This document shows positions 3,784 to 36,179 of a DNA stretch of 40,141 nt, one piece after another; the stretch's first letter is position 1, and every line of letters starts with the position of its first letter. Below the pieces are notes generated by a model. That model was given only the letters and a program-made list of their open reading frames with translations, did no database searches and had not been told where the DNA came from. The DNA comes from a virus. The position numbers were made by a program, and so were the translations under genes. The stretch spans positions 1-40,141 of IMG/VR virus record IMGVR_UViG_3300030118_001776; one strand, written 5' to 3'.

Positions 3784-3977
3784 GCATTCCATCTATTACG
3801 TTTTACTATTTGTTTACGTTCATCATCTGTCTTGCATGGTAACCCATCTACATGGTGCATAAATTTTTCCCGGCATACTAAACATGATTCGTGTCTGTTG
3901 TAGTCATACTCAACTATTGCCATCAAGCTCTGTAAAGTTAGTGCTGTACGTCTTCCAATCTTATCTATATCTGTCAT
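3780..3977 (-). CDS. Small Cys/His protein, 65 aa
   Basis: The start is set at the ATG at 3977, which overlaps the TGA of the nuclease gene (ATGA); a TTG further upstream would give five extra residues. The protein has a helical N-terminal half, then ESCLVCREKFMHHVDGLPC, whose C-x2-C, H-H and final C could bind zinc, and a basic C-terminus (KQIVKRNRWNA). This resembles small zinc-binding phage proteins often found beside replication genes. Function unknown. Confidence 0.6.
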   Translation of the reverse strand: MTDIDKIGRRTALTLQSLMAIVEYDYNRHESCLVCREKFMHHVDGLPCKTDDERKQIVKRNRWNA

Positions 3978-4351
3978 GGAAGCTGTGACCAAAATGGATC
4001 ATCGTAGAATTTATTACCGACTTTAGTCTCTACTATTTCTATAAAGGTATCTAGTGGTAAGCATACAATTATAGGTACGCCGTCAGGTTGTCTTCTTTGT
4101 CCGCCAGTTTTTACTAGCCGCTTCCATACTAACGCTGTAAAGTTCGACTTTGACTTCTTGATTGCCTTTGCTAACTCACGTGTAACATTTAGACTTTGCC
4201 TAGCTTTACACTCTACAAAAAACTCATTGCCATTCCAATGAAACAACACATCACCTTTGTCGTTCTTGCCACCTTCTGCGATACGTTGTCCATCTAACAT
4301 TTTTGCTACAAATGTTTCTAGCTTTGTACCCTGTTGTTTTTGTTTGCTCAT
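3974..4351 (-). CDS. PD-(D/E)XK nuclease, resolvase-like
   Basis: The core is KGDV (D34) followed by FFVECKAR (E47, K49), the D...ExK active site of the PD-(D/E)XK superfamily, with an N-terminal helix GTKLETFVAKML as in archaeal-type Holliday-junction resolvases. The length (125 aa) fits a single catalytic domain. It probably cuts branched DNA during replication or recombination; a VRR-NUC-type enzyme is the alternative. The ATG at 4351 is preferred to a GTG one codon upstream because AGGA is better spaced to it. TGATG overlap with the gene upstream, ATGA with the gene downstream. Confidence 0.65.
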   Translation of the reverse strand: MSKQKQQGTKLETFVAKMLDGQRIAEGGKNDKGDVLFHWNGNEFFVECKARQSLNVTRELAKAIKKSKSNFTALVWKRLVKTGGQRRQPDGVPIIVCLPLDTFIEIVETKVGNKFYDDPFWSQLP

Positions 4352-4788
4352 CACTCTTCCTTTTTAATTAATTTTCTCTCCTTCAATGCCTTTGGTGAGT
4401 TCAGCACACGTGCTACTGCTGATAAGTATGCGTGCATTTCACCACGATAAAACCTACCGTAGTCAAGTTGCACACCCCGTTGTACATATTGGTAAGAAAA
4501 CAAATCATTAAAATCTAATAGCAAGTCTATATAACCTACACCTTTACTTGTAACAATTTCGACTTTGACTCCGCCATAATGCGGACAATCTTTTGTAGGT
4601 ATGTTTGGTTCTAACTTTATAACATTTCTATATAGACTGTTGTGTTCTGTTGTATCACCAGGAAAAAAACCTATTCTATCTGCAGGTTCTATCTCTTCAC
4701 AATATGTAATAGCTTCTAAAATACCATCGGACATGTTAAGTAAATCCCATGCAGCTTGTCCGCCTTTAGTTTTTAGAACGTCCTTCAT
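4351..4788 (-). CDS. Hypothetical protein, 145 aa
   Basis: Not recognised. Residues about 70-90 (VKVEIVTSKGVGYIDLLLDF) form hydrophobic strands with an acidic pair, and the C-terminus is a basic helix (NSPKALKERKLIKKEE). The strand pattern plus its place beside a nuclease could suggest a RecB-like fold, but I do not see a complete D...ExK motif, so I leave it unassigned. ATGA overlap with the winged-helix gene upstream. Confidence 0.65.
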   Translation of the reverse strand: MKDVLKTKGGQAAWDLLNMSDGILEAITYCEEIEPADRIGFFPGDTTEHNSLYRNVIKLEPNIPTKDCPHYGGVKVEIVTSKGVGYIDLLLDFNDLFSYQYVQRGVQLDYGRFYRGEMHAYLSAVARVLNSPKALKERKLIKKEE

Positions 4789-5066
4789 ACATTTAATTCT
4801 AGTTGTATCGCATTGTCCAGTCTATTTATTAATTCTTGTTTTTTTTCTTGATCGTTGAGTTTATACATACACAAGTTCTTTGCTTTGTGATAGTGTCCAG
4901 GTATCTTACATGGTGTACCTTCGCCACCTAGTATGTAGTCTTCACCTAAGTCTTGTCGTATCTCTGATATACGATTACGTGCTGATACGCCTAGCTCATA
5001 CAGTTCTCCTGCACAATGCCATTCGTTGTCAGATAATATTTGTAGTATGTCATCTCGCATACTCAT
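4785..5066 (-). CDS. Winged-helix DNA-binding protein, 93 aa
   Basis: Residues 5-40 fit a helix-turn-helix: DILQILSDNEWHCAGEL, a turn, then the recognition helix ARNRISEIRQDLG. A beta wing follows (YILGGEGTPC ... CMYKL), with C and H residues that could stabilise it. Similar small winged-helix proteins are frequent in phage early regions and act as regulators or DNA-processing accessories. A strong AGGAAGGAGATACT leader precedes the ATG. The tail after residue 70 is a charged helix. Confidence 0.6.
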   Translation of the reverse strand: MSMRDDILQILSDNEWHCAGELYELGVSARNRISEIRQDLGEDYILGGEGTPCKIPGHYHKAKNLCMYKLNDQEKKQELINRLDNAIQLELNV

Positions 5067-5078
5067 AGTATCTCCTTC

Positions 5079-5384
5079 CTATAACTTATACCATTCGTAC
5101 TTCAAGCATAATTCACTTCCCATAGGTATGTCAACGACTGTGTATACAAAAAATAATCTACGGTCTTGTACTTTTTTTAGATTAGGTGTGTCGCTGTGAT
5201 TTATAAAACCACCTAAAGGTGTGCGCACAATCTCATCAACATGTGGATATTGGTCTAAGTCAACTTGTATGTGCGTTACACCTAAGTTAACACCTTTATC
5301 AATGTCAACTAATGTAAATAATCCGAGTCCATCTATCTTGCTTGGTTTTATTGTAAGGTAACTAGGTAATGGTTTATAGGTCAC
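5079..5384 (-). CDS. SET-domain protein, putative lysine methyltransferase
   Basis: All three hallmark blocks of a minimal SET domain are present: SKIDGLGLF (15-23), GGFINHSDTPN (58-68, the N-H-S element that contacts S-adenosylmethionine) and GSELCLKYEWY (89-99, the catalytic Tyr region). At 101 residues it is almost only the SET core, without pre- or post-SET cysteines. SET proteins transfer methyl groups to lysine side chains; small viral examples act on histones or host proteins. The target here is unknown. It starts at GTG, overlapping the stop of the 45-residue gene (GTGA). Confidence 0.75.
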   Translation of the reverse strand: MTYKPLPSYLTIKPSKIDGLGLFTLVDIDKGVNLGVTHIQVDLDQYPHVDEIVRTPLGGFINHSDTPNLKKVQDRRLFFVYTVVDIPMGSELCLKYEWYKL

Positions 5385-5518
5385 TTTGTAAGATCAAAGT
5401 CTTCGTCAGGATTATTATGTTTATTTATCATTACACCTAACACCATATTCTTAAACTCTTCTGATCCAACTTTTACTCCTGGACCATCAAACGGATTATC
5501 TTTTTTATTCTTCGCCAT
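5381..5518 (-). CDS. Hypothetical small protein, 45 aa
   Basis: Begins MAKNKKDNPFDGPGVKVG and ends DEDFDLTK. AGGAG sits nine bases before the ATG. Likely unstructured at both ends with one short helix (SEEFKNMVLGVMI). It is coupled to the SET gene by a GTGA junction, so the two may be made together. No family recognised. Confidence 0.6.
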   Translation of the reverse strand: MAKNKKDNPFDGPGVKVGSEEFKNMVLGVMINKHNNPDEDFDLTK

Positions 5519-5669: not shown

Positions 5670-6449
5670 TTAGAACGGCGCTTCGTTTTCTTTGATTTCT
5701 TCAACGTCTTTTGCCTTTACTAACTCTGGCATATACCATTCTTCTGGTGCCTGTTGTTCTGCGTTAAAACTCTCCATATAGTAAGCACGTGGTTTACCAT
5801 CTTTGCCTGCTTTACAATCTCTGTTTTTACATTTCCAATCAGGATAACCTTGACTGATTTTACCAGTAGCTTTGTCCATTCTGTTGTCCCATAGTTCACT
5901 GTCACAACTTATACATCTTGGTTCTACTGTGCCTTTTGTAATTACTATTTTTTCTTCTATCTCTACACCTATTGTATCTAGCTTCTCTTGTACAGATTTA
6001 CCTTGTAAGTCTTGTTCAGTCACTGCACCTTCTAATTTTTTTTGTACGCTAGGTGGAGGACTGTAAGTATTGCTATTGCTAGTTTTACTTACAGTCTTGG
6101 TAACCTCAATGTTGCCACTTAGGTTCTCCACTTTTTGCATTTCTGTGACTGAAGGACGCTTCTTTGCAGCGTACTTCCAATTAGCTAAAGCTCTTCCTAT
6201 TGCAGATGTCTCACCGTTCTCGATCCATGATGTTTTGTTTGCGCCTACTGGACCATGTTGGTCTTGCGCTATGCCTGTAGCTACAGGATTATCGTCTGCA
6301 ATATCTTTGTATATCTCACATCTATGTATTGCATTCTTAAAATCTTCACTTACGTGTATTATTTTTGTATCAACTCTTCCGTTTGGATTGTCCTTCCAAA
6401 ACTTTTTAAGTCTATCTTCTACTTGATCGTACTCATCTTGCCATGCCAT
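5670..6449 (-). CDS. Putative ssDNA-annealing/recombination protein, 259 aa
   Basis: The block WIENGETSAIGRALANW (75-91) is the signature of phage single-strand annealing and Erf/Rad52-like recombination proteins. A Ser/Thr/Pro linker (about 118-135) follows, then a zinc-finger region with C179, C182, C207 and C212, and an acidic C-terminus ending ENEAPF. That tip resembles the acidic, Phe-ended tail by which bacterial SSB recruits partners. It probably binds ssDNA and anneals complementary strands during recombination-dependent replication. AGGAGATATATA leader; TAATG junction with the upstream gene. Confidence 0.6.
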   Translation of the reverse strand: MAWQDEYDQVEDRLKKFWKDNPNGRVDTKIIHVSEDFKNAIHRCEIYKDIADDNPVATGIAQDQHGPVGANKTSWIENGETSAIGRALANWKYAAKKRPSVTEMQKVENLSGNIEVTKTVSKTSNSNTYSPPPSVQKKLEGAVTEQDLQGKSVQEKLDTIGVEIEEKIVITKGTVEPRCISCDSELWDNRMDKATGKISQGYPDWKCKNRDCKAGKDGKPRAYYMESFNAEQQAPEEWYMPELVKAKDVEEIKENEAPF

Positions 6450-7244: not shown

Positions 7245-7327
7245 TACTCCTCCTCAAACTCTGTATCTATCCAGGACACGTGTACGCGCGATCCATCATC
7301 AAGTATTATCCACGCGTTTTCGTTCAT
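7244..7327 (-). CDS. Possible 27-aa acidic micro-ORF
   Basis: Encodes MNENAWIILDDGSRVHVSW followed by IDTEFEEE. The beta-hairpin-like opening and acidic tail look non-random. It starts by ATGA overlap with the metallophosphoesterase stop, and its own 3' end carries the ribosome site of the next micro-ORF. Confidence 0.45.
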   Translation of the reverse strand: MNENAWIILDDGSRVHVSWIDTEFEEE

Positions 7328-8544
7328 ACAATCTCTTTATTATTATGTCCATTCTTGTCTACAACCATTGTCATTATGCCCTGCTTAGTCTTCTTACCTG
7401 CTTGCTGTTCAAACCAAGTACTCTCATCTAGTGCAGGAACTTGTATCCATGTACGCCCGTCATGTAATTCACGATGATGATGGTAGTGACCTGTAACAAG
7501 TATACTACTAGCACCTGCATGGAAGCCGCCAAATGTCTGGTTCTTCCACCAAGTCATAAGTTTATTTTCTACTGTCCCACTGTAGCCCGCCAAATGTCCG
7601 TGCGTAAAACTCATGTTGGTGCCACAAACGTTTAGTGATAAGTGTGGTTCATCAGGTATTACAAACTTTATATGATCGAACTGTGGTTTGTCTGCAAATA
7701 TTTCTGCTATCTGTTCAAACACTTCTATGTCATAGTTGTCCATCTCACCTGTAGGTGCTAAGTTTTTTGCAATCCTTTTAGTCCCATGATTTCCGGGAAC
7801 TGCACCGACTACAACTACATCAAAATCTTTTGACCATTCTATTAGTGACTTAGCAATTAATCTTCTAGCTAACTTCATTTGATTACGATAATCTAACTCG
7901 ACTCCGTTAGGTCCCATTGCTTGGGGGTAGAAGCCAACGCAACCTTCGACAATATCACCAAGTCCTATGACTGTAAGCTGATCTAACTTAACACCTGCCT
8001 TACGTAAAAAATTATATCTATCTCGTACTGTATCTATCTTCTCCAGGTATCTTTTTACTATTGCTTCTGTACCACCGCCATCTCTTTTACCTAGTTGTAG
8101 ATCAGATATAGCTACAAAGAAACTTGCCTTTGGTTTTTTTATTTTAGGTTTTGATTTACGTTTGTATGATTGTATCCAGTTAGATAGTTTCTCATATTCT
8201 TTTTCGTCTATTGTATCTTCTGTTAAAACTATCTGTGCTTTGTATGCCCATGCTTGTTGCACGTCTCCTTTTCCCAAATTCATATCCCACGTGCTTACAC
8301 GAATTGTGTCATTCAGGATAGAATATTTTTTAGGATCGAATCCCCACGACTGTAACAGCTCGTCAAACTCTGGGTTAGCTTGTTGCAATGCCCTTGTAGT
8401 TATCGTTCCAGTCTTTTTCTTGTAGTCAAACTTAACACCTGGTTCCCAACCATTAGGGTGGTTAGGTGTATCAGACTCCTCGTTGTGTGGTACGTCCTGT
8501 TGGGTTGTAGTAAGTTTACTTACTTGTGAGTTGTTTTTTTGCAT
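7324..8544 (-). CDS. Metallophosphoesterase, 406 aa
   Basis: The calcineurin-type phosphoesterase motifs are all present: SDLQLGK (D148, with Gln where His is usual), LGDIVEG (GD at 196-197), GNHG (251-254), THGH (314-317) and GHYHHH (352-357). These ligands hold two metal ions for hydrolysis of phosphodiesters or phosphomonoesters. The first 140 residues are an extra domain ending in a basic KRKSKPKIKKPK stretch, perhaps for nucleic-acid binding. The family includes SbcD/Mre11 nucleases and many phage enzymes of unknown substrate. The start lies 29 bases inside the holin gene, so expression should be tied to it. Confidence 0.8.
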   Translation of the reverse strand: MQKNNSQVSKLTTTQQDVPHNEESDTPNHPNGWEPGVKFDYKKKTGTITTRALQQANPEFDELLQSWGFDPKKYSILNDTIRVSTWDMNLGKGDVQQAWAYKAQIVLTEDTIDEKEYEKLSNWIQSYKRKSKPKIKKPKASFFVAISDLQLGKRDGGGTEAIVKRYLEKIDTVRDRYNFLRKAGVKLDQLTVIGLGDIVEGCVGFYPQAMGPNGVELDYRNQMKLARRLIAKSLIEWSKDFDVVVVGAVPGNHGTKRIAKNLAPTGEMDNYDIEVFEQIAEIFADKPQFDHIKFVIPDEPHLSLNVCGTNMSFTHGHLAGYSGTVENKLMTWWKNQTFGGFHAGASSILVTGHYHHHRELHDGRTWIQVPALDESTWFEQQAGKKTKQGIMTMVVDKNGHNNKEIV

Positions 8545-9412: not shown

Positions 9413-9571
9413 CTACCTGCTAGCTGCCCACATGTTGTCAACGAGATTAGGATACTTACGACCATTAGCTTTAGCTCTAGCTTTTGCTTTTGCCTTTTGT
9501 GCAGGCGTTAGCTTTTTACTTTTGCCTAGACCTTTTGGTCTTGGTTTATCCCATACTGGTTTTTTAGCCAT
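9413..9571 (-). CDS. Small basic protein, 52 aa
   Basis: Starts MAKKPVWDKPRPKGLGKSKK, then a Lys/Ala helix (AQKAKAKARAKANGRKY) and PNLVDNMWAASR. Small proteins with this Lys-Ala helix followed by a YPNLVDN motif occur in marine phages; their role is unknown. I place the start at the ATG at 9571, one base after the previous stop; a longer frame overlapping the poly-Lys tract upstream is less likely. It is one of five consecutive very basic proteins. Confidence 0.65.
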   Translation of the reverse strand: MAKKPVWDKPRPKGLGKSKKLTPAQKAKAKARAKANGRKYPNLVDNMWAASR

Positions 9572-9572
9572 G

Positions 9573-9701
9573 TTATTTACCTTTTTTCTTTTTCTTCTTC
9601 TTCTTCTGTAGCATAGCAAAGTCTGCACCGGTTATTTTGTTAAATGGTGGTGCTACGTTAGCTATTTTCTTTTGCTTTGCACTATATTTTTCGTACGGCA
9701 T
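9573..9701 (-). CDS. Small basic protein with poly-Lys tail, 42 aa
   Basis: Starts MPYEKYSAKQKKIANVAPPF, continues with NKITGADFAMLQ and ends in eight consecutive Lys plus GK. The ATG at 9701 has GAGGAAGC just upstream; longer frames to 9860 have no ribosome site. This short protein type appears in marine phage genomes without known function. The poly-Lys tail suggests binding to nucleic acid or membrane. Confidence 0.65.
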   Translation of the reverse strand: MPYEKYSAKQKKIANVAPPFNKITGADFAMLQKKKKKKKKGK

Positions 9702-9711
9702 TGCTTCCTCT

Positions 9712-9981
9712 CTAAGTCCACTTAGTCTTGTTAGCCCAGAATGCTGCAGACATTTTACCTTTTGCAATATTCTTTGCATGTCTAGCTTGAAATGATTTTC
9801 TTCTAGCTTTAGACTTTGCGTCCTTTTTTTTACCTGCGCCGCTGACTCCTTGTTGTCCATAGCGGATCAACTTTATTTTGTCTCCTTCTTTGGCAAGGAC
9901 AGCATGCGACTTTGTTGGGTGATTAGGTGTTCTCTTTGGTTTGTTATATCCAGAAAACCTCTCACCTCTATACGTAATCAT
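9712..9981 (-). CDS. Conserved phage basic protein, 89 aa
   Basis: The features KSHAVLAKEGDKIKLIRYGQQG and the Arg/Lys-rich helix SFQARHAKNIAKGKMSAAFWA ending in NKTKW match a small protein common in marine phages, which I know only as a protein of unknown function. The first half looks like beta strands and the second like a basic helix. It begins by TAATG overlap with the 57-residue gene. Confidence 0.7.
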   Translation of the reverse strand: MITYRGERFSGYNKPKRTPNHPTKSHAVLAKEGDKIKLIRYGQQGVSGAGKKKDAKSKARRKSFQARHAKNIAKGKMSAAFWANKTKWT

Positions 9982-10154
9982 TACTTACCTACCTTTTTTT
10001 GTGCATTCTTATGCGCCTTACTAAAGGACGCACCTCTTCTCATACTGTTGTACATGTATTGCATGTGCTTTTTAGTATGATGTACAGAATGCTTTTTCAT
10101 TGCCTTCTGTTGACTCTTAGTCAACTTACTAACATCTACACCTTTAACCTTCAT
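9981..10154 (-). CDS. Small basic protein, 57 aa
   Basis: Starts MKVKGVDVSKLTKSQQKAMK and continues with KHSVHHTKKHMQYMYNSMRRGASF and a Lys-rich end. A helical, His/Lys-rich protein resembling small phage proteins with the VDVSKLTKRQQ motif. TAATG overlaps at both ends tie it to its neighbours. Unknown function. Confidence 0.65.
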   Translation of the reverse strand: MKVKGVDVSKLTKSQQKAMKKHSVHHTKKHMQYMYNSMRRGASFSKAHKNAQKKVGK

Positions 10155-10222
10155 TAGTAGCCCATTCTTTTTTTCTTACGCTTAGAAGAATATCTTTTCT
10201 TCTTACCTTTTTTCATTGGCAT
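10154..10222 (-). CDS. Very basic micro-ORF, 22 aa
   Basis: Encodes MPMKKGKKKRYSSKRKKKRM plus GY: 13 of 22 residues are Lys or Arg. It starts one base after the stop of the membrane-protein gene, with AAGGTGAG about 11 bases upstream, and ends by TAATG at the next gene. The junctions on both sides support translation; it looks like a protamine-like or ribosome-like basic peptide. Confidence 0.55.
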   Translation of the reverse strand: MPMKKGKKKRYSSKRKKKRMGY

Positions 10223-10223
10223 A

Positions 10224-10451
10224 CTATCTACTCACCTTCCTAACTGTTTGTTTCTCTTCTGGTTCTTTACGCATACTTATCGTAAGTAACCATAACACAG
10301 TGCTTATAATTATAGCAATACCTACAATATCTTTTGCAGTTCCGGTTAATGTTAACCATGCAATAAAGAATCCTAATAGTGTAAATGTTTGTGCTATTGT
10401 TTCCTTCAGCACTTCATATAACCACTTAATTATTTTTTTAATGTATTTCAT
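10224..10451 (-). CDS. Two-helix membrane protein, 75 aa, holin-like
   Basis: Two hydrophobic segments (about 20-36, AQTFTLLGFFIAWLTLTG, and 41-57, IVGIAIIISTVLWLL) with a charged N-terminus and a basic C-terminal tail. This is the shape of a class II holin or antiholin. It follows the exported acidic protein by ATGA overlap. The better holin candidate is the r1t-type gene at 8516, so this one might be an antiholin or serve the surface protein. Confidence 0.6.
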   Translation of the reverse strand: MKYIKKIIKWLYEVLKETIAQTFTLLGFFIAWLTLTGTAKDIVGIAIIISTVLWLLTISMRKEPEEKQTVRKVSR

Positions 10452-12589
10452 ATCCTACGTCTTATTCTAACTGGTACGACTTGCACGCTTGCTACAATTT
10501 GCGAAGCTATGATGACAGGAACAACAACTTCTTGTGCTTTTTCTTTTTGTGTAGATGTCATTGTGTCACCAATAGTTGTAAGATCTATTGCTGCTACATC
10601 TATATCTGTAAATGCAGCTACTGGATCTGCTAAAAATTCTTCTGTTTGTACCTCTGTAACAACGTCAGCAAGGTTGTAATCTTCTACATCAGCATTCTCT
10701 ACTGCACGTTCTACGTATTCTTCTACAGCTTCTGCAACTGCTTCATCTTCTTTTACAGCTTCAGCAATAATTTGTACGTCTTCTGCTTCGTCTAATTGTA
10801 AAACTTCCTGCACAACTTCTACTTGTTCTTCAGTAAGTTCTTCTTCTGACGCTATCTCTATGACTTCTTCTACGACTGCACTTACAACTTCAAGTACATC
10901 TTCGCTAACAGATTCAAGATTCTCCACTCCGACTGTAGCAACTTCTTCAAGTATCTCCACAACTTCTTCTGTTTCAAGTTCTTCAACATACTCTTCTATA
11001 ACTTCTTCTGTTATTTCTTCTTCAACTACAGGTAACTCTATAACCTCTTCTATAACTTCTTCTAATACTTCTACTTCTTGTTCTATTTGTTCTGTTGTTT
11101 TTTCTTCTGGTTCTGGATTTGTGTCTTCATCTTCTTCTTTAGATTTCTCTTCTCGTTCCACGTCATCTCCAGGTATCTCTTCGTCCAACTCATCTTCTTC
11201 TTCCTCTATAATCTCTATCTCTACTTTAGGTTCAGGTTTATCATCATCTGGTATAACTATAATAATATCTTCAGGTATCTCAATATCGTCGAGATCAATG
11301 ATCGGCACGTCAACAATATCCAGGTCCTCGATCGGTAGTATAGGTGGTAAAGGTTCTCCCTTATTTTCTCCTTCAGTATCTGTATCTTCAACGTCAATGA
11401 CCACCGTAGGTACCACATCATCATCGCTAGGAAGCTCTGTTTTTTGTTCTGGTTTTTGTTCGTCATCATCTACTTCTATTATAACGTCTTCTTCGTCAGG
11501 ATATTCTATAGGTAAAGTTTCTGGTATATCACAATCACCACGATCTATCTGTGCGTCTGTCATATAACAACCGTATGCTGCTTCGTTTGCAGCACGTTGG
11601 TTATCTCTATCTACTGTACCATCTGCAACCTGTGTAGGTGTATAGTCAGATACTGTGCCATCGTCCATAACAACTTCTACTTTTTCAGGTATTGTTGTAG
11701 GTGGTACATAAGGTTCTGGATCTGGTTCTGGTGCAGGTGCTTGTGTAGTAGGTGGTGTAGTTTTAGGTGGTGTATATTCTGTTGTTTCAAAATTATTAGA
11801 ATCTGAATCTGTACATGACTCACCATTTTCAAGATCGCCACAAACAGAAAAGGTCCAATAAAATGTACCTGTTTCTATATACTCATAACCTAATGTATAT
11901 TCTCTAAGAGTTGTATCGTCTATGATTACACGTGTAAAGTTTGTATTGTCATAGCTGTAATTTATATGAAATGAATGTGCGTCTACATCACCATCTGCAT
12001 ACTCCCACTCAAAAAATACATCTTGTCCTTGATAATTTACAGATACATTTATTGCATTGTTAGGTGTAACTGGTGGTGCAACTGTCGTTGTAGTTGTTGT
12101 ACTTGTATCATTACAAGTTGTTTGTGGTAAACCATTCCATACTAAATTTACAAAAGGTAACTGGTTAGGTATATCGATATTCATTTGTGCTGTTAGATCA
12201 GAAAAACTATTATCTGTATCATTATCTCCTCTGATCTTTACTCTAAAGTTACCGTATGGATTCTCAAAATATGTTTGTAAATCTGACAAAGAAAACGTAT
12301 GGTAGTTCCATTCTTGATTACCTGTATGACCAAATGATGTACTTACGCAAAAACTATTTGTTGTCACGTCATTATCTATGTCAAAAAATATTGTGTATTT
12401 TTCTGGAGGACTATCTTCTAATCCATCAGATGTAAATATACCAATAGTTATATCACCAGTTGTAGTGTCTATTGCTAATGATTGATTGTATGGTGCCTGT
12501 GTAGTTACATGATATGCAAAGACAGGAACAGGTACGACTAGGAATATAACTAGACCTAGTCGAACCAGTGTATTAAATTTGTGAAGCAC
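10448..12589 (-). CDS. Exported acidic surface-type protein, 713 aa
   Basis: The N-terminus (GTG start) is a signal peptide: short basic region, then LGLVIFLVVPVPVFA with likely cleavage after residue 25. The first 170 residues are beta-rich; residues about 178-270 resemble a fibronectin type III module (VFFEWEYADGDVDAH). Thr-rich linkers (TTTTTTVAPP and later PPTTQAP) follow, then about 320 residues of extreme Glu/Asp/Val/Ile content with EEV and EVIEE repeats. The last 30 residues are hydrophobic and end RIRRRI, which fits a C-terminal membrane anchor. I infer display on the host surface; a virion adhesin is the alternative. Confidence 0.6.
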   Translation of the reverse strand: MLHKFNTLVRLGLVIFLVVPVPVFAYHVTTQAPYNQSLAIDTTTGDITIGIFTSDGLEDSPPEKYTIFFDIDNDVTTNSFCVSTSFGHTGNQEWNYHTFSLSDLQTYFENPYGNFRVKIRGDNDTDNSFSDLTAQMNIDIPNQLPFVNLVWNGLPQTTCNDTSTTTTTTVAPPVTPNNAINVSVNYQGQDVFFEWEYADGDVDAHSFHINYSYDNTNFTRVIIDDTTLREYTLGYEYIETGTFYWTFSVCGDLENGESCTDSDSNNFETTEYTPPKTTPPTTQAPAPEPDPEPYVPPTTIPEKVEVVMDDGTVSDYTPTQVADGTVDRDNQRAANEAAYGCYMTDAQIDRGDCDIPETLPIEYPDEEDVIIEVDDDEQKPEQKTELPSDDDVVPTVVIDVEDTDTEGENKGEPLPPILPIEDLDIVDVPIIDLDDIEIPEDIIIVIPDDDKPEPKVEIEIIEEEEDELDEEIPGDDVEREEKSKEEDEDTNPEPEEKTTEQIEQEVEVLEEVIEEVIELPVVEEEITEEVIEEYVEELETEEVVEILEEVATVGVENLESVSEDVLEVVSAVVEEVIEIASEEELTEEQVEVVQEVLQLDEAEDVQIIAEAVKEDEAVAEAVEEYVERAVENADVEDYNLADVVTEVQTEEFLADPVAAFTDIDVAAIDLTTIGDTMTSTQKEKAQEVVVPVIIASQIVASVQVVPVRIRRRI

Positions 12590-21976: not shown

Positions 21977-23023
21977 TTAACCAACTACGTTGTCGATTGC
22001 ACAGTGATATTGTTGTGGTCCGAAATCGAAAGCCATTTCCATATATACTGCTTTTGCAATCCTTGCTTTATCATCTTGATCTAAGTCTCTAACAAACATA
22101 GTTCCATAACCTGGAATGTTAAGGAATACTGGTTTGACGAAGCTAAGGTCAACGATAAATGCTTGCTTAGAACCGGTGATGGTTCCTGCAGGCAAGTAAT
22201 CAGATAATGCGAGACCTAATGATCCGAATGGTGTAACGATTGTATCAATGTCAACACCTCCGACATTTCTGTCTCTTGGTAGGATTCCGTAATTAACAGA
22301 TCCGACTGTTGCTTTAACTAATTCTTTGTTAAGATCCAACAACATTGTTGGGCTAACGAAAAGAACTGGTTGTCTCATTGGCGCACCTGCGTCATAAAGA
22401 GTTTTCATTGCAGAAGCAATGATGTCCCAGTTGATTTTTTGTGCGGCAGGAGTACCTGCACCGTCGTCGTTATTTACAGAGTTACCGCCTGATAGGTCTT
22501 GATGTGCTTTAAGACCTCTCATTTGACGATCACCTGATGTTCCGTCGTTGTATGTTCCATTAAATGCTTGGAACTCAACCTTCTTAGCTACTGTTTCCAG
22601 TACCAATTCCATCTGATAAGCTAACTCATCAGAGATAGGATTATTACCCTCTAAAGATAATGCAGGATCGGAGTTCTTGTAGTTTCCAGATAATTGGAAA
22701 GGTACGATTTCACCTGACGCAGCTTGTGCTGTATAAGATACTTGTGCTGCTTCATGGAAAATCTGAAGAACGCCCTGTTGTGCGCTTCTATTTCTACCTG
22801 AATAGTTAGGTGAACCACCTTCATCATCAGGAGTAACAGAAGAGATTGTTGCATTGTCTTGTGTTTGAAACTGGAAGAATGTACTATTGATAGCATTTCC
22901 GCCGTTCAATCCACCTGCTGCTGCTAGTAGAGGAGTTCTATGTGGTGTTATTTTAAATAGTTCACCAGTAAAATTATTAATATCACTAGCTACTATCGGA
23001 TTTGCACCTGATATTGCACCCAT
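21977..23023 (-). CDS. Major capsid protein, HK97 fold, 348 aa
   Basis: Starts MGAISGANPIVASDINNFTG with the ITPHRTPLLAAAGG stretch typical of SU10-type major capsid proteins, then an E-loop-like region (TPDDEGGSPNYSGRNRSAQQG), a spine-helix region (DELAYQMELVLETVAKKVEFQAFNGTYND) and a P-domain with RQPVLFVSPTMLLDLNKEL. The C-terminus returns to strands (GTMFVRDLDQDDKARIAKAVYMEMAFDF). Sits directly after the scaffold gene and before a perfect hairpin. It forms the icosahedral shell. Confidence 0.8.
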   Translation of the reverse strand: MGAISGANPIVASDINNFTGELFKITPHRTPLLAAAGGLNGGNAINSTFFQFQTQDNATISSVTPDDEGGSPNYSGRNRSAQQGVLQIFHEAAQVSYTAQAASGEIVPFQLSGNYKNSDPALSLEGNNPISDELAYQMELVLETVAKKVEFQAFNGTYNDGTSGDRQMRGLKAHQDLSGGNSVNNDDGAGTPAAQKINWDIIASAMKTLYDAGAPMRQPVLFVSPTMLLDLNKELVKATVGSVNYGILPRDRNVGGVDIDTIVTPFGSLGLALSDYLPAGTITGSKQAFIVDLSFVKPVFLNIPGYGTMFVRDLDQDDKARIAKAVYMEMAFDFGPQQYHCAIDNVVG

Positions 23024-29039: not shown

Positions 29040-30681
29040 TACGTTCCTTTGTAGCTTTTTCTTTTGCTGCTACTTCTGCACCAAATAAACCATCAGCGTA
29101 TTCTTCTAGACTAGCAGTTGGTGTCTCTGGAACGACAAGGTTTTTATCTGCACCAGGAAACATACGTTGTGCTAAATCAAAGTTCTTGTTATAATCTGCT
29201 ACTGCTGTTTGATAGTCTTTACTACTCGCTACATAGAAGTCTGCTAATGCAACCATCTCTGCTTCTGATAATTCTCTATCTATACCTATAGCACGTAAAG
29301 CACCGTCTATCTCTGTTTTTACAGCTGATGGACTAGGTTCTATAAATACTTTAGGTAATAATGGTGGTCGTTTGTATAACCTATCTTTTTCTGCTGCTAG
29401 ATGTGTACCTATATCTGATAACTCATAGTTAGCATTTGTCATTGCTGACAACATAGCTGTTTGACTTGCAGCACCCCAACTACCTTGCTCAAAAAACCAA
29501 TCATCATAACTTAAATATCCTGCTTGTAATAAATCTGTTTGTACAGCTAGTCTCTCTTGTGGCAACATGTTAAAACCTATTTGTATATGATCTTGATTAC
29601 CATACCTATTTTTTACATCTTCTTCTGTAAGTGTTATTGTTTCTGCTGCCATGTCACTAGGTGTAAGTTCTCTGCCTTCTTCAAACACTGCTGCTAAATC
29701 AGGATTCTTATATACAGTGTATCCTGGTGTAATACCACCAAACAAACCATAATTACCAGAAAACTCACTTTGTCCTAGTAATGTTTCTCTTGCTTGTTCG
29801 ATTGCTTTGGCTTCTTGTGTTCTTAATAATGTATACCCACCATCAAGTTGACCTTCTTCTAATTGTACGTACTCACTCTCTGTAACAACTCTTTGTTCTA
29901 TTTCGCCTGTGGCATTGTTCATTATTGTTATAGCACCACCTGCTTCTTTAACAGTTTTGTATGTGCCATCACTTATATCTTTTACTCTATCGTTGTATTC
30001 TCCGCTAAATTCATAGTTGCCTGGATCACCTGACATAATAGGTTCATACAATACAGTAGGTTCTGCTCTAAAACCTTGTTTAGGTACTTTTGTTCTACCA
30101 GGTTCAACTTCTCTAAATAATTGCATAGTATCTTCTGGATTGTCATAATTTTTTTTGTATGCGTCATACTCATCTGTAGAGAACAACACAACACCTTTAC
30201 CACCACCAGGTTTTACTAATGCACCTATTTGTCCTGTAGAGTCATACCAATCGTCTAATTTATCTACTAAATAATTAAAATAATCTACTGCTTCATCTGC
30301 TTGTATAACACCTGCTGATATATCCATACCTTTAAAAACATCTATTCTTACGTCTAAAGGTGTATTGACTAACCATGTTTCATATTGTCCTGGTGCATAT
30401 CCTGCAGGATCACCTTCTAGTTCTACTGCACCTATTGCGTCATTTAGTGCATTTGTAAAAACATTTTTTGTAACGCTTGTCATACCTAAACCAGATACAG
30501 AATCTTGTGATTGTGCTGTATCGTATATTTTTAATGCAGTGTTTACTTTTGCAATAAATAAAGAATCAGATATGTTTTCTTTTACATAACCATTTAGTTC
30601 TGCAACAAAAGGATCGTTGTCTGGTACTTGTCTTTGTGCAATAATGCTGTCAACTATAGATTGTTTATATTCTTCTGTCAT
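28981..30681 (-). CDS. Virion protein, 566 aa, unassigned
   Basis: Mostly helical with an N-terminal TEEYKQSIVDSIIAQRQVP, a long Gly/Glu-containing middle and a C-terminus that overlaps the lysozyme leader. Contains YNKNFDLAQRMFPGADKN and LPQERLAVQTDLLQAGYL, a helix type seen in internal proteins that line the ejection channel. No catalytic motif. ATGA overlap with the giant gene upstream. Confidence 0.55.
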   Translation of the reverse strand: MTEEYKQSIVDSIIAQRQVPDNDPFVAELNGYVKENISDSLFIAKVNTALKIYDTAQSQDSVSGLGMTSVTKNVFTNALNDAIGAVELEGDPAGYAPGQYETWLVNTPLDVRIDVFKGMDISAGVIQADEAVDYFNYLVDKLDDWYDSTGQIGALVKPGGGKGVVLFSTDEYDAYKKNYDNPEDTMQLFREVEPGRTKVPKQGFRAEPTVLYEPIMSGDPGNYEFSGEYNDRVKDISDGTYKTVKEAGGAITIMNNATGEIEQRVVTESEYVQLEEGQLDGGYTLLRTQEAKAIEQARETLLGQSEFSGNYGLFGGITPGYTVYKNPDLAAVFEEGRELTPSDMAAETITLTEEDVKNRYGNQDHIQIGFNMLPQERLAVQTDLLQAGYLSYDDWFFEQGSWGAASQTAMLSAMTNANYELSDIGTHLAAEKDRLYKRPPLLPKVFIEPSPSAVKTEIDGALRAIGIDRELSEAEMVALADFYVASSKDYQTAVADYNKNFDLAQRMFPGADKNLVVPETPTASLEEYADGLFGAEVAAKEKATKERNDLSYLFTTLDTMSRLASG

Positions 30682-33600
30682 GCTTCTCCCTGCTGCGTAG
30701 GCAAATAAGCGCCATATTCAACCATTGTATCATAATCATACTCTAGATCCTCTAAGAACTGTGTCCTCTCTTGGAATAATGGTAATAGTAAGTTTTGTGC
30801 AATAACATAGAAATCATCATTAGATACTGCTATTTGTCCAATAAAATCTCTAAGTTGTTGTCTCTCAACTAACATTGTACGTGATGTACGCCAACCGTTA
30901 GATGACAAACCTTTACCTAATGATTTCTTTTCTAGTATTGCTATATAATCTAATACTTGTGCAACAGCTTTACCTGTTTCTGTTTTACGTAACTTAGGAC
31001 TATTTTCCCAGTTTTTTAACTCTTCGTATTGTGCGTCTAATGTACCACGCTGTGGTAAACCAGGTATCGATGTATCAAATCCTGGATATTTAGTTGCAGC
31101 TATATTTCTTTTAAGTGCTAATAATCTTGATCTTTGTTTTGCCTGGTATGGATCTGTAATGTCAAACTGTGCTAAAGAAGCTACTCTCTCTTCTTCCATA
31201 AAAAATTCACCTAATCTTTGATTACGTGTAGCTAACCATTCTTCTGGTGTTAAAGGTTCTCTTTGCTCATTGTATATAGTTCTTGTATATGCTTCGTAGT
31301 CAAAAGGACCACCACCGCCATTTGGTACTGCATAGAATGCTGTAAGTTTATATTCTTCAAATAACTCTGGATTCTCTTTTTCAAACTGTACACCACGTTC
31401 ATCTACAGGTCTAGGTTCTACAACTATAGATTTAGGTGTAGCAATATCTAACGGATTAAAACCAAACTCATCTATAAAATATTTTGTAGCAGAATAATTA
31501 TCACCAGGTGCAAATAATAAATTACCTGTGACTGGATCTTTAGGTGGTGTTTCTATAAGTTCTCTATATCTATCTGCAAGTATTTGCATAGAATATACGT
31601 TGCCTGCATTCTTAGGATCACCTATATCAAATCTAGGATTTAATCCTGTAGGACCTACAAACTGTGAAAACATCTTTATTAATGTAAGATTTCTACCTAC
31701 AGTTCTAGATCTCTCTAATAATCTTTGTTGTGCTTCTGGTGTCATATCATCTTCACCATTTGCTTTTAGTATTCTATATACATCAATAGTTGTATTAGCT
31801 GCAATACGTGACAACTCACCTGGAGGTGCGTCTTCGTTAAACATAAAAGCAGCACGTACACCGTTCTTTAACCATGCCGGTACACCTGCTTCTTGTATCA
31901 AGTCACCTGGTGTTTTGACTGTAGGTAAACCATAAGGAAATAAAAACTTTTGTGTTTCTGTAAATTTAGGTGTACCTTCTAAAAAGAATGCTGCAGGTAT
32001 AGCAGCTGTAGGACCGATACCTGGTACAACTTCTAATGCAATGTTAAGAGAACCTGCATAACCTGGTAATCTAACGCCTACATTTCTATCTTGACCAAAT
32101 ATAGCGTCAGATACTAAATCATCTACTAATGGATAATAAAATATTTCTTCGCCTGTAACTTCGTCTTCTGATAAAAACCCTTCTCCTTCTACAGGACTAA
32201 ATGGATTTTTGTCACGTGCAGCTTGTACAGTTACTTGACCTCTTCTTACAATCTCTGGATTCTCTTTTAGTAACTTAGCCCATGTAGATAATATTTCTAC
32301 GTATGCTTCACCAAATGGGAATATACCTCTAAGGTTGTAGGTAATCTTACTACGCTTACTTAGATCGTATAACAAACCTTGTAGTTCTTCTAGTGCTATA
32401 GCTTTTGCAAAGTTATCTACATATTCTGCGTCTACAATGTTATTGTCAAATCCTGCTACTGCATTTAGATCGTCTATAGCAGTGTTAAAACTTGTAAGAC
32501 CATCGTTTAATTCATCTATTAATGCTTCTTTTTGTGCTAATAATGCGTCAACATCTATATCATCTGCGCCTATATTTATTTGATCATCTATATCATCAAT
32601 AAGTTTTTGTTGTTTTCTTTTGTATATAGAAACATCTCGTTGCATTTTTTGTATCATATTTGTATTGTCTACAAACTCTCTACCTGCTTTTAGATCAGCT
32701 TGATTTAGTTCTAGGACTCTTCTCTCAAACATATCTAGATTTATTTCTGTATCAGCTTTACGCAACTTAACAGAAGGTAAACCAATATCTGCTTTTATAC
32801 TTGCTAATAAATTTTCGTTAGGTATGTTTGAGTTTCTTGCACCACTAACTTTTATATTCTTGCCACCTTTTCTGTATGACTTACCTTCTAACAATACTGT
32901 GCGCATTGCAGGTGTCATTCTTGGTAACAAGTCATATACAGCACGCCAGTATGCTTGTCTAAATACTGGTGACCTAGAAGCGTTATCTGTTCTTTGTCCC
33001 ATAATCTCGTCAAACATTTTATTAACAAATCTCTCTATCCATTTTGTATCATCTAATACTGTGCCATCTAATGGTGCAGTCACATACTGTGGTAAATCTT
33101 CTATGTAATTATTAAGTATTGTGTCATAGTATGAATTTGCTGCTTTTCTCATACTCTTGTCATCTAGTGTTGTAAAACCTTTACCAAATATTTTAAATAA
33201 GTCATCTAGATCTTCTATACCATCAAGTCCTTGACCTTCTTTTATAAGATACATAGTCTTACCTGCATGTTCTACAGAACCTGCTGCGTTCTTAATTTGT
33301 GCAGGTGTAAGCAATGCAGCGTCTGTCCATACACCTTCTGTTGCTTCTGTAGCAATATGTTTTAGCTTACCTGTTGTAATCATGGCATATAGATCTTCAT
33401 TACGTGGTTTATCTATACGTAATGGAAATGGATTTTTACCAAAATCTATATCTTCAAACTCTAATTTATTCATAACATCTTCTAGAACTGTTATATCTTC
33501 GTCAAATGCACCACCTGCAGCTTGATGTAATCTTGCTTCTATAGATTTTGCATAAGCATATCTACCACCTGCTGTAGACATAACATCTTCATATCTTGTA

Positions 33601-36179
33601 CCACCTTTTGCATATTCTTCTATAACACGTTTAGCTTTAGGTGATTTACCTTGTACCCATTCTTTTAGTGCGTTTTGTCTAGCTTTAGGATTAGATTTAT
33701 TTTTGAATAACAAATCAAACAAATCATCTTGATATAGTTTTGCAACTTCATTTGTCCAACTTCTTACAAACTTATTACCAGTAGCTCTATCACCTGTAGT
33801 CATACCACGTATAGCGTCTAGTTTGTCTAATACGTCATAATCGTGTGGTCCTGCTTTTTTACGTCTACCTTGTTGTTTTCTTTGATTACGTGCAGCACCG
33901 CCAAATAACTCATCGTTATTATTAGCACCACGCATACGTGATGATCCTTGCTTCCACTCTAAACTCTCACCTAATGGATCACCTAACAAATCTTTAAACT
34001 CTACATTCTTTTGTGTCCATCGTTTTGCTTGTGCAGCTTCTTTACCTGCACCTGTAGCTTTTGCTAAACCTAAAGATAATATTGATAATGGTCTAGAAAA
34101 TATGTTGTCATAACCTCTAGTAAACATACGTAGCTGTTCTTCACCTACAACACGTAATAACCATGCACCACGTAACAAAACAGCAGGTTTCCAGAACTCT
34201 GTGTAATACCAGTCAACTGTTCTACCAGTTATACCTTTTTGCATTTTTTTAGGATATTTAGCTAAAAAGTTATCAAATGCTTTTGTACCACCCATTTTAG
34301 ATCTAAGTATTGACATGCTATTCATAGCTTTTGCAAGCTGACCTGCGTCTGGCATAGGTATAGTTCTGTTAATAAACTCTGTAGTAAGGTGTGCGTCAGG
34401 CATTGCCTTCATCTTGCCTTCTACTGTTATAGGATTCATCTTCATACCTGGTTGTCTAACATTGTCACCTGTATAACCATCTATAAAATATTTACGCATA
34501 TCGTCGATTGTTTCTTCAAAAATACGTGTAAATGTTTTAGCGTCCTGTACAGATACTTGTCCGTTTTCTACTAAATCTCTACCTGTTTCTTCTAACATGT
34601 TTACAGCTACTCTAAACAAACCTGCTTGGTCTCTGTTTTTAAGATTCATAGTATCTTTTAATATTGAGTCTTTTGTGTTTCTATTTAGATCTGTTTGATC
34701 TAACCATTTTTTTATTTGGTCAAATGATTGTTCTATGTTTTCGCTATCTAAATAACGTAAAGGTAAGTCTTTTGTATAGGTTGCCATAATACGTGCAGAC
34801 CTAGAATTACTATCCATAAGTGCCAACTTAAATACTTTTTTAGCACCAAACAATGTCCCGGTACCTGTAGGTACGTTTGTACCTGCTATAGCTTCTGCTG
34901 TGCCACCTAAAAACCTACCTATAGCACCTACTGTAGGTCTTACATTGCCAAATGGCATATCTCTAAAACCTATAGCTTTATCTAGTAAATTAGCCATATC
35001 TATTATTTTTTCGTCTGCAGTTTTTGTAAAGTCTTGTGATACCTTCATAAACTCTTTTACAACGCCAGGATCTTTTATACCTGTAATATCCATAAATTTA
35101 GATTCTGACTCTATCTTTGATAAATACTTAACAAGTTTCATACCACCTGGATCTTTGTTTAGATAATCTGTTACAGACTTAGGTGTAACAAAAGATAGTC
35201 CCCAACCTCTGTTTATCATACCTATTTCAGCTAGCTGTGCTTTGGTCATTTTTTCTGGATCTTTAAATCCCAGTTGTTTTATAAGATTATTACTAGGTCT
35301 TAGTATTTTTCTACTTTTTGCTGCTGCTGCAGCACCTAATGTAAGGTAGTTAGCAGGATCTAAAAACAATGCTTTACCTGCGTCTAGTACACCTGATATA
35401 GCGTTAAATGCGGTTGTACCAGGTTCTGACACACCTAATGCAACAGTTCTACCTAATGAAATAGGTGTTTGTACAGTTTCTCCTGTACCTAATGTTGTAG
35501 AAATATTAAACAAACCACTGTCTTCTTGCATATTTCTATCTATTTCTGTAATAGCAGAACCTAATTGATTTTGTATTATGCTTTGCGCACGTTCTTGGTC
35601 AAAACCAGATTGTATAAGATATTTGTATTCGTCAAACATTTTACTGTTAGGATTGTCTGGATCAAACACTTCTGACTGTGGTAACAATCCATCACCTAAA
35701 TTTACTTCTTTACCTTGTGCTAAGTTCTTAAATACTTGTTTTACTGTAGATTTACCAGATTGTCTGTATGCGTCTGCAAATGACAAGTTTTCTGCATTGT
35801 CACCTATTGTTGCTGCAATCATAGAGTTTATAGGTCTATCTACTGTTGTTCTGTATAAATCTTCTAATGCAAGCAAACCAAACCTTACAGCACCTTTTAG
35901 TGGATCAAATATCTTCTCTACAGTGTTTTTTTTGTTATGTTCTACGATTCTTTGTGACAATGTATTTAATACTTCTGCTTCTGGTTTTACCTGCAGCATT
36001 GTCAATGATGTAATAACATCTGGTGAAAAGTTAGGATATAACTGTGCTATTGCTGTAGCACGTTCTGCGTCAGCTTTATTTACAGAAGACTGCGCTCTTG
36101 TCCATTGTGTTTTTCTTTGTCGTAGCTCTTTGTATAAGTCTTGTTCTGACTTAGGATTGTCAAAATGATATACGCCCAT
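30678..36179 (-). CDS. Giant virion protein, 1833 aa
   Basis: The largest gene in the window, 14% of its length. It is helical with few cysteines. Hydrophobic stretches lie near 105-140 and 250-295; a basic patch (AARNQRKQQGRRKKAG) is near 765, a coiled coil (QKMQRDVSIYKRKQQKLIDD) near 1180, and FPFGEAYVEILSTWAKLL near 1295, a motif of large phage polyvalent/internal proteins. The size matches T7 gp16-like or N4-type ejected proteins, which form a channel across the envelope. It lies between portal-adjacent genes and the 566-residue gene. No polymerase or protease signature seen. Confidence 0.6.
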   Translation of the reverse strand: MGVYHFDNPKSEQDLYKELRQRKTQWTRAQSSVNKADAERATAIAQLYPNFSPDVITSLTMLQVKPEAEVLNTLSQRIVEHNKKNTVEKIFDPLKGAVRFGLLALEDLYRTTVDRPINSMIAATIGDNAENLSFADAYRQSGKSTVKQVFKNLAQGKEVNLGDGLLPQSEVFDPDNPNSKMFDEYKYLIQSGFDQERAQSIIQNQLGSAITEIDRNMQEDSGLFNISTTLGTGETVQTPISLGRTVALGVSEPGTTAFNAISGVLDAGKALFLDPANYLTLGAAAAAKSRKILRPSNNLIKQLGFKDPEKMTKAQLAEIGMINRGWGLSFVTPKSVTDYLNKDPGGMKLVKYLSKIESESKFMDITGIKDPGVVKEFMKVSQDFTKTADEKIIDMANLLDKAIGFRDMPFGNVRPTVGAIGRFLGGTAEAIAGTNVPTGTGTLFGAKKVFKLALMDSNSRSARIMATYTKDLPLRYLDSENIEQSFDQIKKWLDQTDLNRNTKDSILKDTMNLKNRDQAGLFRVAVNMLEETGRDLVENGQVSVQDAKTFTRIFEETIDDMRKYFIDGYTGDNVRQPGMKMNPITVEGKMKAMPDAHLTTEFINRTIPMPDAGQLAKAMNSMSILRSKMGGTKAFDNFLAKYPKKMQKGITGRTVDWYYTEFWKPAVLLRGAWLLRVVGEEQLRMFTRGYDNIFSRPLSILSLGLAKATGAGKEAAQAKRWTQKNVEFKDLLGDPLGESLEWKQGSSRMRGANNNDELFGGAARNQRKQQGRRKKAGPHDYDVLDKLDAIRGMTTGDRATGNKFVRSWTNEVAKLYQDDLFDLLFKNKSNPKARQNALKEWVQGKSPKAKRVIEEYAKGGTRYEDVMSTAGGRYAYAKSIEARLHQAAGGAFDEDITVLEDVMNKLEFEDIDFGKNPFPLRIDKPRNEDLYAMITTGKLKHIATEATEGVWTDAALLTPAQIKNAAGSVEHAGKTMYLIKEGQGLDGIEDLDDLFKIFGKGFTTLDDKSMRKAANSYYDTILNNYIEDLPQYVTAPLDGTVLDDTKWIERFVNKMFDEIMGQRTDNASRSPVFRQAYWRAVYDLLPRMTPAMRTVLLEGKSYRKGGKNIKVSGARNSNIPNENLLASIKADIGLPSVKLRKADTEINLDMFERRVLELNQADLKAGREFVDNTNMIQKMQRDVSIYKRKQQKLIDDIDDQINIGADDIDVDALLAQKEALIDELNDGLTSFNTAIDDLNAVAGFDNNIVDAEYVDNFAKAIALEELQGLLYDLSKRSKITYNLRGIFPFGEAYVEILSTWAKLLKENPEIVRRGQVTVQAARDKNPFSPVEGEGFLSEDEVTGEEIFYYPLVDDLVSDAIFGQDRNVGVRLPGYAGSLNIALEVVPGIGPTAAIPAAFFLEGTPKFTETQKFLFPYGLPTVKTPGDLIQEAGVPAWLKNGVRAAFMFNEDAPPGELSRIAANTTIDVYRILKANGEDDMTPEAQQRLLERSRTVGRNLTLIKMFSQFVGPTGLNPRFDIGDPKNAGNVYSMQILADRYRELIETPPKDPVTGNLLFAPGDNYSATKYFIDEFGFNPLDIATPKSIVVEPRPVDERGVQFEKENPELFEEYKLTAFYAVPNGGGGPFDYEAYTRTIYNEQREPLTPEEWLATRNQRLGEFFMEEERVASLAQFDITDPYQAKQRSRLLALKRNIAATKYPGFDTSIPGLPQRGTLDAQYEELKNWENSPKLRKTETGKAVAQVLDYIAILEKKSLGKGLSSNGWRTSRTMLVERQQLRDFIGQIAVSNDDFYVIAQNLLLPLFQERTQFLEDLEYDYDTMVEYGAYLPTQQGEA

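Follow-up and report, generated by a model that had tools for sequence, protein, structure and literature searches.

A compact variant of the SET fold common to marine phages and bacteria

The open reading frame at positions 5079-5384 of the window (the whole 40,141-nucleotide stretch of viral DNA analysed here) encodes a SET domain, as established by both its sequence and its predicted fold, and represents a distinct compact variant of this known fold that is common to marine phages and bacteria. The protein is likely an active SAM-dependent methyltransferase. We lend roughly even confidence to its being a compact, catalytically competent class V (SET-fold) SAM-dependent enzyme, most likely a protein-lysine methyltransferase acting on a host or phage protein, where we infer both the acceptor, lysine, and the nature of the substrate, a protein.

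Identification of the gene and its SET domain

The gene call places a 101-aa product with a GTG start on the minus strand. The sequence-only reading had proposed a stand-alone, minimal SET protein at this position, and the ORF is borne out, scoring well above chance against the Pfam SET model (PF00856; 31.5 bits, E = 2.5e-7, against a curated cut-off of 22.4 bits). The gene and its immediate upstream neighbor are:

5079..5384, minus strand: compact SET-domain protein, phrog_28741 (ORF call, Pfam, PHROG, AlphaFold2, Foldseek, dN/dS about 0.14)
5381..5518, minus strand: 45-aa ORF directly upstream, whose TGA stop overlaps the GTG start of the SET gene (AAGTGACC); neighbor cluster 24, 7 loci

As the GTG lies within the upstream stop, translation of the two ORFs is probably coupled. 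Comparison with four close relatives (L002-L005) gives dN/dS values of 0.17, 0.12, 0.14 and 0.24, respectively, with substitutions mostly at third codon positions; these low ratios and the third-position changes identify it as a real gene under purifying selection at the protein level.

The assignment to the SET superfamily is supported by several profile comparisons. The Pfam SET model is also matched by all 64 of the 64 aligned relatives, profile-profile comparison with canonical bacterial SET proteins yields E-values of 2e-14 to 5e-16, and a profile search of the PDB recovers KMT2D (1.6e-9) and the viral protein vSET (1e-5, or 5e-9 with a broader profile). Residues 1-100 align with positions 1-97 of the 100 positions of PHROG 28741 (E = 8.2e-23), and on account of this full-length match the protein belongs to that family, which carries no assigned function and is here identified as a SET family. 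Sub-threshold matches to a large SET-containing NCBIfam family fell far below its 550-bit cut-off, and naming by that family was dropped.

The predicted structure agrees with the sequence evidence. An AlphaFold2 model built from the 64-sequence alignment has a pLDDT of 90.5 and a pTM of 0.78, with residues 99-101 at pLDDT below 50, and all 50 of the 50 Foldseek matches listed against the PDB are SET or PR domain proteins, headed by S. pombe Set7 and then vSET. The predicted fold is thus that of SET, although the low confidence of the last three residues, at the C-terminal end expected to be threaded as the pseudoknot, counts against the protein-lysine reading. The notion of a stand-alone minimal SET domain is thus upheld by fold as well as by the active-site residues considered below. 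Among named entries of BFVD, the best matches are to SET proteins from uncultured phages and from giant viruses, indicating that phage SET domains as such have already been annotated automatically.

Conserved residues and missing SET elements

Conservation was computed over 142 relatives and resolves into five blocks, all encoded on the minus strand:

5364..5378, minus strand: family-specific N-terminal Y/W-x-P-L-P, residues 3-7 (L6 in 100%, P5 and P7 in 97-98%)
5316..5342, minus strand: SET-N block SKIDGLGLF, residues 15-23, aligned to canonical SET (S15 and G21 invariant, G19 in 99%)
5271..5285, minus strand: LGVTH, residues 34-38, signature LGx[TS]H (G35 and H38 in 100%)
5181..5225, minus strand: RTPLGGFINHSDTPN, residues 54-68, SET-C NHxxxPN block with family-specific RxPLGG prefix (R54, P56, G58-F60, N62 and H63 in 100%)
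5088..5120, minus strand: GSELCLKYEWY, residues 89-99, SET-C E..L..xY block with the presumed catalytic Tyr96 (E91 in 100%, Y96 in 99-100%)

The complete set of invariant positions comprises L6, S15, G21, G35, H38, R54, P56, G58, G59, F60, N62, H63 and E91. The invariance of PLGGFINH is in part a product of selection, because this string served as a search pattern; the pattern used for the genome scan did not include H38, R54, E91 or Y96. Profile alignment with canonical SET proteins of the Pelagibacteraceae equates N62-H63-S64 with their NHS, E91 with their Glu and Y96 with the Tyr of ELTYDY, making N62, H63, E91 and Y96 the counterparts of canonical active-site residues. N62, H63 and Y96 are not lost among the relatives (100%, 100% and 99% of the 142), and the GxG loop of SKIDGLGLF is expected to contact SAM. 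Elsewhere in these blocks Ser64 is variable, being replaced by A, L, K, Q, T or H, while Y99 is invariant in phages and often Asn in bacterial relatives.

The claim that the three SET blocks are intact has to be qualified in this light: SKIDGLGLF, GGFINHSDTPN and GSELCLKYEWY are present as quoted, but EYxG, most of SET-I and the post-SET region are lacking and the Ser of NHS varies. The EYxG strand motif is typical of canonical SETs (it is not required by the Pfam cut-off), and LGx[TS]H with the invariant His38 stands in its place; likewise, canonical Y31 and G33, invariant in the canonical set (alignment A3), are unmatched in the compact family. SET-I is nearly gone, with 22 residues between Gly31 of SET-N and Arg54, and the chain ends at Leu101 with no post-SET, such that the pre-SET, SET-I and post-SET elements of the histone/KMT type are not found. 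The R-x-P-L-G-G-F stretch, on the other hand, is family-specific.

In known lysine methyltransferases SET-I takes part in binding the peptide, and its near loss, together with the absence of EYxG, counts against the protein-lysine reading. The same reductions, including the missing post-SET, could also be taken to mean that the domain is non-catalytic or very weakly catalytic, acting as a small module that senses SAM or binds protein, for instance as an inhibitor or adaptor of a host protein, in keeping with the many short phage proteins that bind host enzymes. However, non-catalytic domains usually lose their active-site residues, whereas N62, H63, E91 and Y96 persist throughout a diverse set of 142 relatives, also at positions outside the search patterns, and we consider a non-catalytic role decidedly unlikely.

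Phage gene neighborhoods

The sequence-only reading had placed the gene in a DNA-metabolism region, and this proved correct, with a resolvase downstream and an exonuclease upstream in the same gene block:

3974..4354, minus strand: RusA-like Holliday junction resolvase family protein, downstream, same gene block (PHROG match phrog_244, 3.7e-10; cluster 10)
4785..5066, minus strand: 93-aa downstream neighbor, which accompanies SET among close relatives (cluster 8, 17 loci)
5670..6449, minus strand: 259-aa upstream neighbor, phrog_11717 without assigned function, the most frequent neighbor (near SET in 26 loci)
7324..8544, minus strand: exonuclease-family protein, upstream, same gene block (PHROG match phrog_284, 1.7e-52; cluster 1)

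The 93-aa ORF matches nothing in PHROGs or Pfam. About 16 close relatives share the gene order of the window: phrog_11717 (with the exonuclease-family gene beyond it), SET, the 93-aa ORF, a 145-aa ORF and the RusA-like resolvase. In other phages the SET gene lies by terminase, baseplate or nrdAB genes, and neighbor clustering over 84 sources recovered no partner gene constant across phage lineages, a result that counts against the protein-lysine reading.

Concerning the phage itself, no Pfam match was obtained for ten window proteins and no tRNA was found in the window. The capsid protein (21977-23023) shares 33% identity with its counterpart in mycobacteriophage Bernal13, and the terminase (38603-39997) shares 28% with Streptomyces phage terminases. 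The two resemble proteins of actinobacteriophages (Mycobacterium and Streptomyces phages) at 27-33% identity, hinting at a possible actinobacterial host. Other unusual ORFs of the window include one of 1833 aa without any Pfam match (30678-36179) and one of 713 aa (10448-12589) with a signal-like N-terminus, a net charge of about -150 and only 2.2% K, which has no Pfam or PHROG match and lies close to very basic small ORFs. Four of the latter follow each other in overlapping frames at 9413-10154, the fourth at about 9981-10154; two match PHROGs 7595 and 34011, neither with an assigned function.

The Lys-rich small phage proteins encoded at 9413-10222 had been suggested as the substrate of a lysine methyltransferase. 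These ORFs do exist and are very basic, with net charges of +16 to +23. However, phrog_7595, the best-defined Lys-rich family among them, occurs in just 5 of 18 SET-carrying records and in 4 of the 12 that exceed 37 kb, and the SET family is present in bacterial chromosomes too; hence, the suggestion is not supported and we regard it as very improbable. Host RNA polymerase and chromatin-like proteins, put forward in the same sequence-only reading, are no more than hypothetical targets.

Distribution in phages and bacteria

A scan of IMG/VR recovered at least 594 encoded relatives, from which 80 were retained (45-97% identity, about 94-113 aa with the gene calls used here), none of them seen fused to another domain. 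Annotated phage carriers include Pelagibacter phage Kolga, the cyanophages P-RSM6 and P-SSM7 and the single-cell record marine virus AG-345-P14; in the cultured phages (Kolga, P-RSM6, P-SSM7) the relatives are annotated as 'hypothetical protein', just as PHROG 28741 is without function. The open-access literature yielded nothing relevant on SET proteins of phages or pelagiphages, and no function was reported for the compact variant in the open-access literature searched.

A further 49 relatives come from bacterial genome contigs. HMM searches of genome samples gave strong matches over nearly the full length in 6 of 150 Flavobacteriaceae (two more being weak), in 5 of 98 Porticoccaceae (with three further matches that were weak or partial) and, for the Pelagibacteraceae, in about 22 of 147, at least two of these phage-type; the many weak Pelagibacteraceae matches, where fetched, were a separate canonical SET protein. 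On one MAG contig the gene (L092) hardly differs from that of phage Kolga, and two others (L088 and L093) share a block; all three are probably phage contigs, so that not all 'bacterial' matches are chromosomal. The groups from Flavobacteriaceae, Porticoccaceae and Pelagibacteraceae nonetheless show conserved synteny with ordinary cellular genes. Hence, the sequence-only description of a SET protein in a phage was right as to its being phage-encoded and too narrow in scope, as the family is common to many phages and several marine bacterial lineages.

In a tree of 132 sequences the phage label requires 9 changes, at least 6 of them forced by well-supported branches, in an alignment of few columns whose deep forks lack resolution and with mis-binned phage contigs explaining some of the changes. 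From these changes the SET gene would appear to have moved repeatedly between phages and cells. A Pelagibacteraceae copy (L097, 4998-5279), which adjoins a PagL-like gene in a run of cellular-looking genes and is apparently chromosomal, groups with the cyanophages P-RSM6 and P-SSM7 (support 100/94), suggesting possible exchange between cyanophages and SAR11.

This distribution also bears on an anti-restriction role as a 'SAM sink', modelled on phage SAM lyases, in which methylation of an abundant acceptor would lower the SAM pool and blunt SAM-dependent host defence. Placement of the gene with DNA-metabolism genes and its spread over unrelated phages speak for such a role, but it leaves the chromosomal copies in bacteria unexplained and sits poorly with the slow turnover of SET enzymes; we deem it extremely improbable.

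Chromosomal contexts and a possible small-molecule substrate

Most Pelagibacteraceae copies examined follow genes for a class-III aminotransferase and alanine dehydrogenase, with gene ends overlapping or adjacent, and a DAO-GCV_T oxidase gene often comes next; two others lie near genes for a DAO-GCV_T oxidase, a Rieske oxygenase, a homocysteine S-methyltransferase and an M24 protein. These chromosomal relatives (L140-L149) are 123-146 aa long, and those behind the aminotransferase and alanine dehydrogenase genes sit in operon-like runs. Three Bacteroidota copies (L087, L089, L096) lie in a run of GNAT, argG, argC, SET, proC (pyrroline-5-carboxylate reductase) and class-III aminotransferase genes, an arginine/proline biosynthesis run with adjacent or overlapping gene ends. 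The Porticoccaceae neighbors are fabA/ketoacyl synthase and redoxin genes, and those in Flavobacteriaceae encode an SBF transporter, a GDSL lipase and a glycosyltransferase. No one functional operon accounts for the chromosomal copies, as the contexts differ between lineages.

The SET enzyme BurB S-methylates free Met, which it binds through main-chain contacts (PMC12542666), making a small-molecule acceptor conceivable for the compact family. The open, SET-I-less pocket might accordingly take a free amine or amino acid, with phages using the enzyme to adjust host metabolism or osmolytes. Besides the BurB precedent, this is favored by the Pelagibacteraceae copies beside aminotransferase/alanine dehydrogenase or oxidase/oxygenase/homocysteine S-methyltransferase genes and by the three Bacteroidota copies between argC and the pyrroline-5-carboxylate reductase gene. 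Against this, the BurB entries are absent from the 60 best PDB profile matches and the 50 Foldseek matches listed, the Porticoccaceae and Flavobacteriaceae neighbors are unrelated, and neighbor clustering found no amine-metabolism partner at the phage loci; we consider such an activity unlikely. That the whole compact family methylates small molecules (amines or amino acids) and not protein lysines, which would make it a metabolic gene in phages, we think slightly less likely still. We know of no description of a SET enzyme that is encoded by a phage and serves metabolism. Still, the amine/amino-acid operons of some chromosomal copies, along with the BurB precedent, do count against the protein-lysine reading.

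Proposed mode of action and significance

In favor of protein-lysine methylation is the fact that Set7 and vSET, the closest solved folds among those listed, are stand-alone SET lysine methyltransferases. The SET matches in sequence and fold, the retained active-site residues, the low dN/dS (about 0.14) and the gene block with resolvase and exonuclease families, itself preserved among close relatives, also speak for this reading. Under this preferred reading, the phage enzyme would be made together with replication and recombination genes, to go by its placement, and would recognize a short segment exposed on some host or phage protein. SAM would bind at the GLGLF loop and the N62-H63 pair, while the acceptor amine would enter a channel from the opposite face; Tyr96, set by the knot between NHxxxPN and ELxLxY, would then orient the amine for in-line methyl transfer. 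Given how little SET-I is left and the lack of a post-SET, specificity must have another origin: candidate sources are the LGx[TS]H and RxPLGG surfaces, a dimer partner, should the protein dimerize as vSET does, or the target's own binding surface.

Eukaryotic chromatin is the setting in which SET enzymes are best known. The compact family is among the smallest complete-looking SET folds, a very small scaffold (94-113 aa) with a distinct invariant signature. Phages that infect ocean bacteria carry it widely, as do some of these bacteria, yet it lacks functional annotation in PHROGs or cultured phages. It raises the question of what marine phages methylate, and the operon contexts of the chromosomal copies supply concrete candidate substrates.

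Comparison with known SET proteins

The same fold has been annotated automatically as 'SET domain containing protein' in uncultured Caudovirales phages (A0A6J5PTS6, A0A6J5L8Y2) and in giant viruses; the viral SET records of BFVD and UniProt are mostly larger (100-971 aa), share 12-28% identity and are known by name only. The BurB/MSMT methionine S-methyltransferases (SET fold, 172 aa; BurB structures 9L4T/9L4V) are bacterial and without a histone context (PMC12542666), but show no special closeness to the compact SET, judging from the sequence and fold matches listed.

Canonical SETs of the Pelagibacteraceae (alignment A3, about 150-165 aa) are homologous by profile comparison (E = 5e-16) and share the NHS..PN and E..Y blocks; they differ in that they possess EYxG and a post-SET rich in Cys (CxC) and have a longer SET-I, features that the compact family lacks. 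Many of the sampled SAR11-family genomes also encode such a second, canonical SET of 150-165 aa with a Cys-rich post-SET (L151-L165), for which no described role was found in the literature searched.

S. pombe Set7 (PDB 5H6Z), the top Foldseek match listed (E = 8e-6), is a compact SET with an LGSMFNH block, but is eukaryotic, larger and directed at a histone. The second Foldseek match listed, vSET (PBCV-1 A612L, 119 aa; PDB 1N3J, 3KMA; TM 0.71; profile E = 5e-9), is similarly a stand-alone viral protein with a compact SET-I and has an FGAIFNHS-type block comparable to that of the phage protein. It differs in being 18 residues longer, in coming from an algal virus, in methylating histone H3K27 and in sharing about 19% identity, and the LGx[TS]H and RxPLGGF signature is what sets the compact family apart from it.
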